A model generated the notes under the pieces. The model had not been told where the DNA came from. It made no database searches and saw only the letters and a list, made by a program, of their open reading frames with translations. This document shows, piece by piece, positions 18,286-24,084 of a stretch of 64,000 bases of DNA; the stretch's first letter is position 1, and each line of letters opens with the position of its first letter. Source of the DNA: Candidatus Sulfotelmatobacter kueseliae (lineage in GTDB: Bacteria > Acidobacteriota > Terriglobia > Terriglobales > Acidobacteriaceae); assembly GCA_900290255.1 (NCBI GenBank), contig OMOD01000141.1, positions 870-64,869 on the forward strand. Reading direction: 5' to 3'. A program made the position numbers and the translations under genes.

Positions 18286-20013
18286 ATGGGTTTCCAAGCT
18301 CTTCTCTTCTGTCCCGATGACAAAACCGCCCGCTCGGTGACGCAAGTCTTAAGCGAGCTGGAGTTCAACGTCGAGTCTTGCAACGAACCTTTCGCTGCAG
18401 TGAAGAAGTTGATGGGCACACACTTCGACGCGATTGTGGTGGACTGCGATAACGAGCAGAACGCCGCACTATTGTTCAAGAGCGCGCGGAATTCGACGTC
18501 CAACCAGGCGTCGCTGGCCGTAGCCGTCGTGGAAGGTCAGGCCGGGGTGGCCAAAGCATTTCGCATTGGTGCCAACCTGGTCCTGACCAAACCCATCAAT
18601 ATCGAACAGGCCAAGGGCACGTTGCGGGTGGCCCGCGGACTGCTGCGGAAGGGCGATCCGGCAAAACCGGCGGCGCCCGCAGCAACCGCAGCTGCGCCTG
18701 GAACCTCAGTTGCGGCGCCGGCCAAGGCGCCCGCGAGTGCTCCGGCAGCGCGTCCGGCCACGCCGGCCGTTGCCAAGCCGACCGCCGTTCCGGCACGCCC
18801 GGCACCGGCGGCGAGCGCGAGTGCGGCTTCGGTTGTTCCGGCCGCGGTTAAGAAAATTGATGCGCCGGTTCTTCCCGCAGCCAAGTCGCCTGTTGCGGCC
18901 GTCCCGGCAATGCACGCACCTGCGGCCGAAGCGAGCCCGGTCAAGTCTGCCGCACACGCTCCCTCCGCTTCATGGAGCAGCGGAGCTGCCAGCGCGCCTG
19001 CGCCGGCCCGTGAAATTCTGGAAATTCCGCCGGTGGAACTGAAGCCGACGAGCGCTCCCCGTGAAGACGACGAGATTCTTGAAGCCCCTGGCGCAGAACG
19101 GCCAAGCGCGTCAACCGAATCTGCGAAGAATGTGCCCGCGCCCTCTTTCACCTTCGGCGGAGCCAATGCTCCCGCAAAATCAGGCGGAGCCAAGAAGGTT
19201 GTGTTGGCAATCGCAGCGGCCGTAATCGTAGCCGTAGGATCATACGCTGGGTTGACGTACTATCAGGGACGTGCGAACCAGAACCAGCCTGTTAAAACCC
19301 CCATGCCCACGAAAGTTGCGGATTTGCTGGCGGAGAAGCCATCTGGCGCGCAGCCTGCTCCGGCGCCTGCAGCCGCCGCGCTGGAACCGCAACTTGCGTC
19401 GCAGCCAGCGGCAACCACGACGGCACCCGCCCCGAGCGCGGCAAATGACGACAGTGAATCCGCGCCCGAGGAAAGCGCACCTCCTGCAGCACCGACTTCC
19501 GTCAAGCCGAAGAGTTCCTCGTCCCCGGCCAGCAAAGCTGCCTCAGCCGCAGCGTCGGCACCTGCACCAGCGCCTCTTATGGTCAAGGGGGGCGCGGCCC
19601 CGGCGAAGACAGCACCAGTGGAGCCCGATGCTCAGGCTCCCAGCGTAATGGGAATCGCGGCAGCGGGTTCGAGCGGCCCCCTGCCGGACCTCGGCACAAC
19701 CGACGGCTCCAAACCTGTGCTCCAGCGGTTGAACATTTCCCAGGGAGTATCCACGGGATTGCTCATCAAGAAGGTCGACCCGGTCTATCCGCCTACCGCT
19801 TTGCGCATGCGGGTTGAGGGCGCCGTCCAGTTGATGGCGACGGTTTCCAAAGCCGGTGACATCACCCAAGTGCAAGTGCTGAGCGGCGACCAGCAACTGA
19901 CGCAGGCGGCAGTCGATGCCGTCAAGCGTTGGAAATACAAGCCATACCTGCTCAACGGCGAGCCGGTCGAAATTCAGACGCAGGTCACCATCAACTTCAG
20001 ACTGCCGCACTAG
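18286..20013 (+). CDS. Receiver-like domain fused to a TonB-type energy transducer
   Basis: Unusual three-part protein. Residues 1-120 look like a CheY-type receiver (ALLFCPDD start, Asp53 in IVVDCDNEQ, Lys102 in LVLTKPIN), though the usual Thr/Ser switch residue is not apparent. Residues ~125-300 are Ala/Pro-rich low-complexity linker. A transmembrane helix VLAIAAAVIVAVGSYAGLTYY follows at about 305-326, then a second Ala/Pro linker. Residues ~485-575 form a TonB C-terminal domain (KKVDPVYPPTALRMRVEG, VKRWKYKPYLLNGEPV). Topology implies a cytosolic receiver and periplasmic TonB domain. Inferred: a TonB-like protein whose state might depend on a cytosolic signal. The neighbour on the opposite strand has the same linker style with a kinase-like domain. 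Confidence 0.85.
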   Translation: MGFQALLFCPDDKTARSVTQVLSELEFNVESCNEPFAAVKKLMGTHFDAIVVDCDNEQNAALLFKSARNSTSNQASLAVAVVEGQAGVAKAFRIGANLVLTKPINIEQAKGTLRVARGLLRKGDPAKPAAPAATAAAPGTSVAAPAKAPASAPAARPATPAVAKPTAVPARPAPAASASAASVVPAAVKKIDAPVLPAAKSPVAAVPAMHAPAAEASPVKSAAHAPSASWSSGAASAPAPAREILEIPPVELKPTSAPREDDEILEAPGAERPSASTESAKNVPAPSFTFGGANAPAKSGGAKKVVLAIAAAVIVAVGSYAGLTYYQGRANQNQPVKTPMPTKVADLLAEKPSGAQPAPAPAAAALEPQLASQPAATTTAPAPSAANDDSESAPEESAPPAAPTSVKPKSSSSPASKAASAAASAPAPAPLMVKGGAAPAKTAPVEPDAQAPSVMGIAAAGSSGPLPDLGTTDGSKPVLQRLNISQGVSTGLLIKKVDPVYPPTALRMRVEGAVQLMATVSKAGDITQVQVLSGDQQLTQAAVDAVKRWKYKPYLLNGEPVEIQTQVTINFRLPH

Positions 20014-20536: not shown

Positions 20537-23146
20537 TCATTGCGGTTGCAGCACTTCATCCACCACCACCTTGTCGTTCTTATCGGCAGTGATGATCTTG
20601 TGTACGGGCGCGTAACCGGTCAGCGTGATGTCAATGACATAGTTCCCCGGATCAAGCGCCACATCCAGCGGAGAAGTCTTTTCCAGCAGGTGCTGGTTGA
20701 TGGCCACTTGCGCGCCTTTGGGCTGGGTGCGGATGCTCACGGTGGCTTGCCCGGCCTGGACACCCTTGCCGCCGAACAGCTTCGACATTTTGCCGACGGT
20801 CTTGATGTTGTCCGCATTGCCCAGCGGCCGCAGTGTCGGCGAAAAGCTCAAGGTCTGCCCCAGAGCGAACTGGCTGTTCGTGGTTTCGTCCAGATAGCCC
20901 ATCAGCCGCACCAGAACCACGTGCTGGCCTTTGTCCACGCTCACCTGAGCGGGTGTCTTTGCGCCCACGTCCCGGCCATCCACATAAATATTGGCTCCGG
21001 GCGGATCGCTCTTCACGATCAGCGTGGCCATCAACTGCGCCAGATGAGAGATGATGGTCACGCGGTTTCCCGAGACCCCTTCAACCGTACGTGTGTCGGT
21101 GGAGTAGCCCGGCTTGCTCACCGTGATGGTGTGCGGTCCGGGCAGAAGATTCGTGAAATTGAACGGGGTGAGCCACGCCGGTTGGGTGCGTCCGTCGATC
21201 TGCACCTGCGCGCCTTGCGGCGTCGAATCCACCGATAATTGTCCGGGAATGATCATTGGCGCAGGGGGCGGAGACTTCTTCCTTCCGGGAGCCGATCTCG
21301 CACTCACGACCGGCTGAGCCATAGGAGCCACCGGCTCGGGCGTCTCTTCCGGTTGGGATGCAGCGACTGGCGGTGCCGCAGGCTGAGGTGCGGGCTGGGG
21401 TGCTGGCTGAGCAGCCTCAGGCTGTGCCGGAGCCTCAGTCTGGGCAGCAGTACGTCCCGCGCCCGCGTCATCGTCGGTGCTGAGATTGTGTACGTACATC
21501 GTGAACCCGACTGCGATGACCAGAATGAGCGCGGCCGCGCCTCCCAGGGCATAGAGCATCAGCCGGGGCGGAACGTTCTTGATTTCCTGGATCGCCTTCT
21601 CCGCTACTTCTCGCGGCTGAACCTTGGGTTTCTCGTCCTGTTTCAGGCTGCCCCGGAACATGGTCGGCGTAGTGGGCGCCTTTGCAGCCGGCTCGAAAGC
21701 AGGCGGCGGTGGAGGCGGAGGCGGCGCGATATAGACTTCCTTCAGCGGTGGCAATTCGTCGAGATCAGAGAAACTGGTGCTGCCGCCGCTGCCGCTCTTC
21801 CCGCCTTCAGCCATCATCGGATCCACTGCGATTTTCGGAGCTTCGGCGACCTGGGGCTCCGACGTCTCGACCTGCGGCTCATCAGCTACAGCCGACGACA
21901 TGTATGCGGATGGAGCCTCCGGCGACTCGATAGCCGGCTTCGCCGGGGCAGCCATGAACTGATCTGACAGATCAAGATCAACCTCTTCGCTGCCAGCCGG
22001 TGCGGTGGTGCTGCTGCCAGCGCCGGCCGCGGCCGCCGCCGCTTTTAGAGCAGGCAGGCTACTGGCCGGCTGGGCCAGGGTTGATGGCCGTTCTGCGCTT
22101 GCCGCAGGCATTTCTTTTTTCTTCTCCGCCGGCTTCGGAAATGTCGGTTTTGCTTCTGCCGGGCGCGCGGCCGGGGTCGCCAGCCCGGACGACCGAGGCA
22201 TGCCCGGCGCGGTTGGAGCCGCTGGCTTGGCAGCGGGTTTTGCCCCGACAGATTTCGATGGCGCCGCTACCTTCCCTGTTCCAGAAGCCCCAGGTCCCTT
22301 GGGCGCCGCCTGCTTCTTGGCTGCGAGCGGCTTGGACTCCTTGCACTTCTCGAGATCGTCAAGCAGGGCCCGGCCGGTCTGGTAGCGCTCGGCCGGATCC
22401 TTGACTAGCACCTTCATGATGAGGTCGCTGAGCAGAGGATGTACCTTCGGATTCACCTGAACTGGCGCCACCGGCATGCTGCCCAGAATGCATTGCCGCA
22501 ACCCCTCGGCCTCTTCCCGGTCGAACGCCTTCCGCTCCGTCACCATTTCGTACAGCATGGCGCCCAGGCTGAACAGATTCGACCGCCCATCCATGGGCTG
22601 GCCCAGAATCTGCTCTGGCGACATGTAATGCAGGAAGGAAGGAACTCCCTCGGGAACGTGCTGCACAAAGTGACCCACGGCGGAGACGCCGTAACTGAGA
22701 ATCCTGACCGTACCATCCCAGCCGCACATGATCTTTGCCGGTTCCAGGCTGCCGTGAACGACGTTTTGTGACGTCGCGTAATCGAGGCCGGCGGTGAGCT
22801 GGCGCCCGATGTCGAGCAGATCCCAGATAGAAAATCCCTCTTTGCGAGCCAGCATGGTGGCAATGCTGTTGCCCTGGACGTAATCCATGGCGGCGCAAAA
22901 CAGGCCCTCGATTTCGCCCGCGCCAAACACATTGGTAATGTTGGGACTGCTGAGGACTTTGGTGCTCTCTGCCTCTTCCAGCAGCGCCTGTTCCAGAGCC
23001 ACGGCACTATCGCCGAACGCGCTCAATCGGATGGCTTTCAGCGCGATCGTTTGCCCGGTCTCGGGATCGGTGGCTTTGTAGACCGATCCAGTGGGCGACT
23101 TCGCCAGTTCACTGAGAATCTCAAATGGGCCGATTTTCGTTGCCAT
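20537..23146 (-). CDS. Predicted Ser/Thr pseudokinase with transmembrane helix and PEGA domains
   Basis: Residues 1-280 have a Hanks-type kinase fold (starts IGPFEILSELAKSPTGSVYK, beta-3 lysine Lys37 in IALKAIR, MSPEQILG, GRSNLFSLGAMLYEM). The catalytic residues are lost: HRDLKPxN reads HGSLEPAK (131-138, Asp to Ser, Lys to Glu, Asn to Lys), DFG reads SYG (151-153), and the Gly-rich loop is degraded. Then come an Ala/Pro linker, a Pro run (APPPPPPPPAFEP), a transmembrane helix LMLYALGGAAALILVIAVGF, and a periplasmic part with about three PEGA repeats (LSVDSTPQGAQVQIDG, LIVKSDPPGANIYVDG, VSIRTQPKGAQVAI). The start ATG 23146 follows GGAG and gives MATKIGPFEIL; the track start 23194 is upstream. 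Likely a non-phosphorylating scaffold or sensor. Confidence 0.88.
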   Translation of the reverse strand: MATKIGPFEILSELAKSPTGSVYKATDPETGQTIALKAIRLSAFGDSAVALEQALLEEAESTKVLSSPNITNVFGAGEIEGLFCAAMDYVQGNSIATMLARKEGFSIWDLLDIGRQLTAGLDYATSQNVVHGSLEPAKIMCGWDGTVRILSYGVSAVGHFVQHVPEGVPSFLHYMSPEQILGQPMDGRSNLFSLGAMLYEMVTERKAFDREEAEGLRQCILGSMPVAPVQVNPKVHPLLSDLIMKVLVKDPAERYQTGRALLDDLEKCKESKPLAAKKQAAPKGPGASGTGKVAAPSKSVGAKPAAKPAAPTAPGMPRSSGLATPAARPAEAKPTFPKPAEKKKEMPAASAERPSTLAQPASSLPALKAAAAAAGAGSSTTAPAGSEEVDLDLSDQFMAAPAKPAIESPEAPSAYMSSAVADEPQVETSEPQVAEAPKIAVDPMMAEGGKSGSGGSTSFSDLDELPPLKEVYIAPPPPPPPPAFEPAAKAPTTPTMFRGSLKQDEKPKVQPREVAEKAIQEIKNVPPRLMLYALGGAAALILVIAVGFTMYVHNLSTDDDAGAGRTAAQTEAPAQPEAAQPAPQPAPQPAAPPVAASQPEETPEPVAPMAQPVVSARSAPGRKKSPPPAPMIIPGQLSVDSTPQGAQVQIDGRTQPAWLTPFNFTNLLPGPHTITVSKPGYSTDTRTVEGVSGNRVTIISHLAQLMATLIVKSDPPGANIYVDGRDVGAKTPAQVSVDKGQHVVLVRLMGYLDETTNSQFALGQTLSFSPTLRPLGNADNIKTVGKMSKLFGGKGVQAGQATVSIRTQPKGAQVAINQHLLEKTSPLDVALDPGNYVIDITLTGYAPVHKIITADKNDKVVVDEVLQPQ

Positions 23147-23559: not shown

Positions 23560-24084
23560 TTACGCCACGGGCGCGAGGCCGATTCCGTTGCCGTTACCCT
23601 GCCCTGTGGCTGATTCCGCCACCCACCGCCAAGCCCGCCGGCCGGTGTTCAGAGCTACGGCCTCCGCTTCCCCATAGTCCACCAAGCGGTTCAGAACGGT
23701 GGTGACCGAAGCCATGGGATCCTTGTGGCGGGCCAGCATCGCCGGCATCTTCTCCTGGAAGCTCTCGCAGATATCGCGCGCGCTCAAGGGTCGGCCCGCT
23801 TCCATCAGGATCATCCGGCAGGCTTTGGTGAAGCCTGGCTGGCGGCCGTTGGTCTTGCGATCCACCAGTTCCAGCAGTTCTTCATTCAAGACGCCGTCGC
23901 CAAACAGGTTGGCTAGCCCGGCGATGGTCTGCTTGACGGTACCGATACGCTTCATGATCTCGGCGCGCTGTTGCAGAAGCAGATGCAGTTCTTCCTGCGC
24001 CTGTCGCACCACTTCCTGCACGTGACCGACGTCATAGCGGTCACTCATTTTGATCAGGCTGTTCCCGTTCTGCCGATTTTCCAT
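23560..24084 (-). CDS. Hypothetical coiled-coil plus winged-helix-like protein
   Basis: No named family recognised. Residues ~15-60 form an amphipathic coiled coil (VGHVQEVVRQAQEELHLLLQQRAEI quoted in part), followed by a C-terminal region that reads like a winged helix (GFTKACRMILMEAGRPLSARDICESF then SVTTVLNRLVDYGEAEAV). That second half resembles the helix-turn-helix of acidobacterial and RNA-polymerase-delta-like (HARE-HTH) domains. GAGGAG sits 8 bases before ATG 24084, so the start is secure. Inferred: a small dimeric DNA-associated regulator. No operon partner is present. Confidence 0.72.
   Translation of the reverse strand: MENRQNGNSLIKMSDRYDVGHVQEVVRQAQEELHLLLQQRAEIMKRIGTVKQTIAGLANLFGDGVLNEELLELVDRKTNGRQPGFTKACRMILMEAGRPLSARDICESFQEKMPAMLARHKDPMASVTTVLNRLVDYGEAEAVALNTGRRAWRWVAESATGQGNGNGIGLAPVA

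Follow-up and report, generated by a model that had tools for sequence, protein, structure and literature searches.

Does a receptor gene whose kinase domain has lost several catalytic residues encode a decaying enzyme, or a protein with a role of its own? This question is raised by an 869-residue open reading frame in the 64,000-nucleotide stretch of DNA that we analysed (the window). The original prediction, made from the sequence of the window, had described an intact frame and proposed a retained non-catalytic role for its product. The frame is indeed intact; it starts with the ATG at position 23146, and the MxTKIG start is conserved among orthologues. Because the catalytic residues have been lost and yet the domain has changed very little in dozens of related soil bacteria, the product is in all likelihood a signalling protein built for a non-enzymatic role rather than the remnant of a decaying gene. 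We named this acidobacterial family of inner-membrane receptor pseudokinases SLEPAK, after its replaced catalytic loop.

Domain layout and structure models

The N-terminal part of the protein matched the Pfam Pkinase profile (PF00069) at 101 bits, against a cut-off of 31.7, and the C-terminus matched PEGA (PF08308) at 134 bits, against a cut-off of 20.8, in three stretches. A predicted disordered linker of about 255 residues lies ahead of the membrane helix (Table 1). By analogy with PknB-type receptors, the pseudokinase domain would be cytoplasmic and the PEGA domains would lie outside the inner membrane. The NF033483 profile for Stk1/PknB PASTA kinases gave 153 bits, below its cut-off of 450, and the outer domains that we found were PEGA, not PASTA.

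An AlphaFold2 model of the kinase domain, built from a 25-sequence alignment, reached a mean pLDDT of 89. Its matches in the PDB were PknB, PknA and PknI, with PDB kinases at TM scores of 0.7-0.8. On the strength of the profile match and the predicted bilobal fold, the domain is of the Hanks-type (eukaryotic-like) protein kinase fold. In a full-length model built from 62 sequences, the kinase and PEGA parts were confident, the latter with a beta-sandwich pattern and a pLDDT above 90 over most of its length; the pTM was 0.46, so the relative arrangement of the domains is not informative. The models differ at residues 7-15, which one shows as a strand and the other as a helix, and the beta-1 and Gly-loop region is therefore not interpretable from the models.

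Table 1. Positions in the window of the receptor pseudokinase gene, its domains and motifs, and the convergent neighbouring gene.
Feature	Residues	Position	Strand	Basis
PEGA receptor pseudokinase, whole gene	869 aa	20537..23146	-	ORF; Pfam Pkinase and three PEGA; start kept in orthologues
Pseudokinase domain	1-270	22337..23146	-	Pfam 18-258; AlphaFold2 pLDDT 89; nearest PDB folds PknB/PknA/PknI
Degraded Gly-rich loop, LAKSPTGSV for LGxGxxGxV	14-22	23081..23107	-	Compared with orthologues and active relatives
Beta-3 Lys, kept	37	23036..23038	-	93/93 orthologues covering the position
AlphaC Glu, kept	58	22973..22975	-	93/93 orthologues covering the position
Pseudokinase-specific FSIWDLLD, alphaD-alphaE loop and start of alphaE	105-112	22811..22834	-	Helix borders from model
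HGSLEPAK in place of HRDLKPxN	131-138	22733..22756	-	D133 absent 94/94; E135 93/94; K138 93/94
Pseudokinase-specific Trp, beta7-beta8 turn	143	22718..22720	-	94/94 orthologues vs 0/9 active relatives
SYG in place of DFG	151-153	22688..22696	-	Asp lost 92/94; aromatic and Gly kept 94/94
Asn replacing alphaF Asp	190	22577..22579	-	Asn 87/94; Asp in 9/9 active relatives
Pro/Ala-rich cytoplasmic linker, predicted disordered	271-526	21569..22336	-	pLDDT mostly <50
Linker motif KIAVDPMM...SFSD..ELPPLKEVY	438-475	21722..21835	-	86/87 full-length orthologues, 0/9 active relatives
Membrane helix	527-556	21479..21568	-	Predicted helix; hydrophobic segment
Three PEGA domains, predicted outside inner membrane	633-869	20540..21250	-	Pfam 134 bits
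Convergent neighbour: receiver-like domain, linker, TonB_C		18286..20013	+	Pfam

Catalytic residues lost and kept

Pairwise alignment to Staphylococcus aureus PknB paired HGSLEPAK with HRDIKPQN and SYG with DFG unambiguously, bearing out the motif readings of the original prediction. The HRD-Asp is thus replaced by S133, the catalytic-loop Lys by E135, the catalytic-loop Asn by K138 and the DFG-Asp by S151. Three catalytic positions had been predicted as lost; S133, K138 and S151 stand, and the count was too low, as E135, N190 and two glycines of the Gly-rich loop have to be added. The same replacements recur among 94 distinct orthologues. None of them has Asp at the HRD-Asp position and 88 have Ser there; Gly or Ser replaces the DFG-Asp in 92 out of 94; and the catalytic-loop exchanges of Lys for Glu and Asn for Lys are fixed across the family (93/94 each). 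The first two glycines of the Gly-rich loop are replaced in nearly all 94 and kept in nine out of nine active relatives. By contrast with these losses, the HRD-His, the DFG aromatic residue and the DFG-Gly each occur in all 94 orthologues. The exceptions are two orthologues with the DFG-Asp and one with the catalytic-loop Asn, all three without the HRD-Asp. In divergent members of the clade, L220 reads HKRLHPAN, with the catalytic-loop Asn kept, and L194 and L211 have LDFG with the HRD-Asp still absent; an inquiry into the order of the losses could best start from these three.

Of the residues expected in an active Ser/Thr kinase, the HRD-Asp, the DFG-Asp and the catalytic-loop Asn are therefore missing, and the beta-3 Lys (Lys37, as predicted) and the alphaC Glu are present. 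We mapped the gatekeeper, hinge and spine positions following the established assignments in PKA. The gatekeeper and hinge are kept (mostly M87, then E88, Y89 in 94/94 and I/V90, as E-Y-[IV]), as are the C-spine residues A35 and M140 and the R-spine residues H131 and [YF]152. With these hinge and spine residues in place, the domain could plausibly adopt an active-like shape with a pocket for adenine. Other kinase domains of the same genome, taken from search hits, kept both HRD and DFG in all 30 examined, with one weaker kinase-like match lying outside this set. Because these 30 kinases keep the motifs and the 94 orthologues share the losses, we conclude from the alignments that the losses are not due to chance or mis-alignment. 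Pseudokinases have been defined as lacking at least one of the beta-3 Lys, the HRD Asp and the DFG Asp (PMC12599244); two of these three are lost here.

A single conserved clade under purifying selection

A scan of our sequence collection recovered 24 orthologues at 55-80% identity, followed by a drop to 35%. Whole-genome searches placed the family in 44 out of 45 genomes of the genus, there as a single copy and including all 20 of the most complete ones, and in 81 out of 329 sampled genomes of the taxonomic family, spread over 22 out of 79 genera. Outside this taxonomic family, we found no SLEPAK pseudokinase in a class-wide sample. The only duplication seen was in genome G251, from another genus, which carries two copies (L107 and L119).

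In a maximum-likelihood tree, all pseudokinases fell on one side of a single branch (stem length 0.83, support 100/100). Their closest neighbours were a clade (support 97/92) of PEGA kinases from the same taxonomic family with every motif intact. This clade held L112-L118, and the comparisons with active relatives used these together with L221 and L222; HRD, Asn, DFG and the Gly-rich loop are intact in all nine. The active relatives sit in neighbourhoods unrelated to the pseudokinase locus, and we accordingly rejected the idea that the pseudokinase is an orthologous replacement of an active relative at the same locus. Median pairwise dN/dS (a Nei-Gojobori-type count) was 0.12 for the pseudokinase domain, 0.18 for the membrane and PEGA part and 0.30 for the linker. 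By this measure the kinase half is the most constrained part of the protein, the opposite of what decay would leave. We conclude from these comparisons that the pseudokinase clade is of single origin, a core gene of its genus and under purifying selection.

These results bear directly on the view that the gene is a kinase that has lost catalysis and is now drifting. The simultaneous loss of several catalytic residues would fit such decay, but 94 orthologues share the same losses with fixed replacement residues, no internal stops interrupted the matched frame among the family matches listed, the kinase domain has the lowest dN/dS of all parts, about 0.12, and the gene is near-universal in the genus. 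We regard decay as highly improbable. The original prediction had asked whether the losses define a conserved clade, which they do, and had allowed that orthologues with intact motifs might expose the gene as merely decaying; no such orthologue was found among the 94, none having the HRD-Asp. The conserved clade, the uniform absence of this residue and the strong purifying selection thus effectively rule out mere decay and support the predicted non-catalytic role well.

New constraints outside the active site

The pseudokinases have gained residues of their own. F105, W108, D109 and D112 each occur in all 94 orthologues, and W108 occurs in none of the nine active relatives; as a set, F105-S-I-W108-D109, D112 and W143 show little or no variation among the pseudokinases and are absent or rare in the active relatives. 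The docking groove of MAP kinases runs from alphaD to alphaE, in the crevice that these make with the reverse turn between beta7 and beta8 (PMC4861982). The W108/D109/D112/W143 patch resembles this groove in position and is a putative docking site.

The linker carries a further conserved block, counted in Table 1 with the loose pattern DPMM...SFS[DE]..ELPPLKE; its residues D442, P443, F459, S460, P466 and P467 are invariant in 62 sequences. A 61-residue query covering the motif matched only this gene in the genome, so that we found no sign of a docking tag shared with other proteins. In the full-length model, the motif showed a weak rise in confidence (block pLDDT at most about 62) and no confident docking onto the pseudokinase. 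The linker is mostly longer in the pseudokinases: their membrane segment starts at about residue 487 (median), against residues 324-351 in eight and residue 444 in one of the nine active relatives. The conservation of the putative docking site and of the linker motif favours a scaffold or receptor role.

Comparison with known kinases and pseudokinases

The SLEPAK family has the layout of the PknB/Stk1-type PASTA kinases, in which a linker and a single membrane helix connect the kinase domain to repeated outer domains, and among solved structures theirs are the closest to it in both sequence and fold; unlike them, the protein studied here is a pseudokinase without catalytic and metal-binding residues, and PEGA replaces PASTA. 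The intact acidobacterial PEGA kinases (the nine active relatives) are alike in domain order and outer-domain layout. They differ in having HRD, Asn, DFG, the Gly-rich loop and the alphaF Asp, in their mostly shorter linker and in lacking the linker motif and W108/W143.

A 2025 review describes seven families of bacterial pseudokinases, a group on which, it states, experiments are still largely lacking (PMC12599244). The primary classification into 42 families is known to us through this review, and the following comparison is limited to the descriptions given there. ActPs1, ActPs2, ActPs3 and GLW have the beta-3 Lys lost or replaced together with HRD/DFG, whereas Lys37 is kept here in 93 out of 93 orthologues; CP1 has no membrane region and is linked to COG3899, whereas a membrane helix and PEGA domains are present here; and DYD and DLHK combine a divergent ATP-binding motif with a kept HRD and/or DFG, the opposite of the pattern here (PMC12599244). 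As far as these descriptions go, sequence features set the SLEPAK family apart from all seven. In the open-licence literature, we found nothing relevant on acidobacterial or PEGA pseudokinases.

The nearest bacterial precedent is MviN of Mycobacterium tuberculosis, a membrane pseudokinase of the ActPs3 family that is phosphorylated by PknB and recruits FhaA (PMC12599244). Both are membrane-anchored bacterial pseudokinases, MviN with a scaffold role; however, ActPs3 members lack the beta-3 Lys and have a deletion in the activation loop, MviN does not bind ATP, and no PEGA domains are described for it (PMC12599244). STRADalpha offers a likeness in working principle only: its DFG and Asn positions are replaced, its active-like fold regulates a partner, and it binds ATP without a cation through substituted basic residues, Arg and His (PMC4718504). 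It is eukaryotic, acts in a STRAD-MO25-LKB1 complex and has other replacement residues, and ATP binding was measured for STRADalpha but would be an extrapolation here. VRK3 shows convergent motif loss, with HRD Asp changed to Asn, DyG Asp changed to Gly and structural residues kept (PMC2639636); its ATP pocket is filled and binds no ATP, whereas the hinge and C-spine residues are kept here.

Against this background, the SLEPAK family is a clean case, with one origin, a close intact relative, phosphotransfer residues lost, the Lys/Glu pair kept, a fixed charge exchange in the catalytic loop and near-universal presence in a soil genus. The family makes it testable how a receptor kinase becomes a non-catalytic receptor and what use bacteria make of one.

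Proposed function and alternatives

Taken as a whole, the evidence is probably best explained by a receptor-type, phosphotransfer-dead docking scaffold, perhaps binding nucleotide without metal. The kept hydrophobic-spine and hinge residues would hold an active-like kinase shape that serves as a docking platform, and nucleotide might bind to it without metal, Lys138 taking the place of the cation. The Trp/Asp patch, from alphaD-alphaE to the beta7-beta8 turn, and the linker motif would recruit a partner, for which the candidates are an effector or an active kinase that has the pseudokinase as its substrate; the PEGA domains would signal to this complex what state the envelope is in. The conserved S458 and S460 of the linker motif would suit an MviN-like phosphorylation. 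Our confidence differs between the parts: it is high that the replaced phosphotransfer and metal-binding residues would exclude ordinary phosphotransfer, moderate for a docking scaffold or receptor acting through the linker motif and the patch gained in the C-lobe, and low for STRADalpha-like, metal-free nucleotide binding through Lys138. The degraded Gly-rich loop counts against nucleotide binding, which is uncertain because a degraded loop goes with the lack of ATP binding in VRK3 (PMC2639636). A more specific version, in which the dead kinase domain is a bacterial counterpart of STRADalpha that binds ATP or another nucleotide metal-free and thereby switches partner docking on the alphaD-alphaE/beta7-beta8 groove, seems unlikely; if true, a non-enzymatic receptor would read nucleotide level and envelope state together.

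Enzymatic alternatives would have to work with what the domain has kept. An atypical phosphotransferase that works, like CASK or other former pseudokinases, with other residues (for example Glu135 and Lys138) could draw on the kept beta-3 Lys, alphaC Glu, hinge and C-spine, and CASK phosphorylates without a DFG Asp (PMC4718504). The HRD catalytic base is, however, absent in 94 out of 94 orthologues, and other residues have taken the place of both metal ligands and of the Lys that contacts phosphate, so we consider this improbable. We give equally little credence to a kinase fold turned to other ATP-dependent chemistry, such as the AMP transfer of SelO or the glutamylation of SidJ: the new invariant charged pair in the former catalytic loop, Glu135 and Lys138, and the kept Lys37/Glu58 would be in its favour, but SelO and SidJ keep a DFG-type Asp (PMC12599244, Table 1), which is lost here in 92 out of 94. 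The pseudokinase might instead be an allosteric partner rather than a docking scaffold, forming hetero-dimers through its N-lobe with the cell's active kinases, which it would activate or restrain. PknB-type kinases are the closest to it in fold, the genome encodes about 30 active-looking kinases, and back-to-back dimers of this kind are formed by the MviN pseudokinase (PMC12599244). We nevertheless think this unlikely: outside the active site, the new constraints are strongest in the alphaD-alphaE/beta7-beta8 region of the C-lobe, not in the N-lobe, and the nearest intact clade occurs in only 2 out of 81 pseudokinase genomes (about ten expected, in a count that ignores ancestry), which argues against a dedicated sister kinase.

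Neighbouring genes and a second pseudokinase family

The product of the convergent gene at 18286-20013 joins a receiver-like domain to TonB_C by a long Pro/Ala linker; across the taxonomic family, the first 124 residues of this product share about 70-93% identity, and they score below the Pfam Response_reg cut-off. The receiver-TonB gene lies within 4-13 kb of the pseudokinase gene in 37 genomes and on a different contig in 37 genomes, and it occurs in 75 out of 81 pseudokinase genomes, compared with 84 out of 329 overall. We rejected this co-occurrence as evidence of a partnership: the neighbouring gene at 23560-24084, used as a control, shows a comparable pattern, and the co-occurrence therefore reflects shared gene content of the clade. 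The control gene, on the minus strand, encodes 174 residues without a Pfam match; it is found at about 60-83% identity in about 70 genomes of the taxonomic family, has some paralogues and is often near the pseudokinase gene.

The weaker kinase-like match set apart from the 30 kinases of this genome belongs to a second conserved pseudokinase family, encoded outside the window (L232:616-1968, plus strand). It brings together a kinase-like domain, a membrane segment and the C-terminal domain of TonB (33.2 bits with NCBIfam tonB_Cterm, against a cut-off of 27.1), and we found no paper on a pseudokinase-TonB fusion in the open-licence literature. In this family, HRD mostly reads HG[HRG] and DFG roughly S[SA]DG, and the HRD-Asp is absent in 30 out of 30 aligned sequences. 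The family occurs in 65 out of 200 genomes of the taxonomic family and in 33 out of 79 genera.
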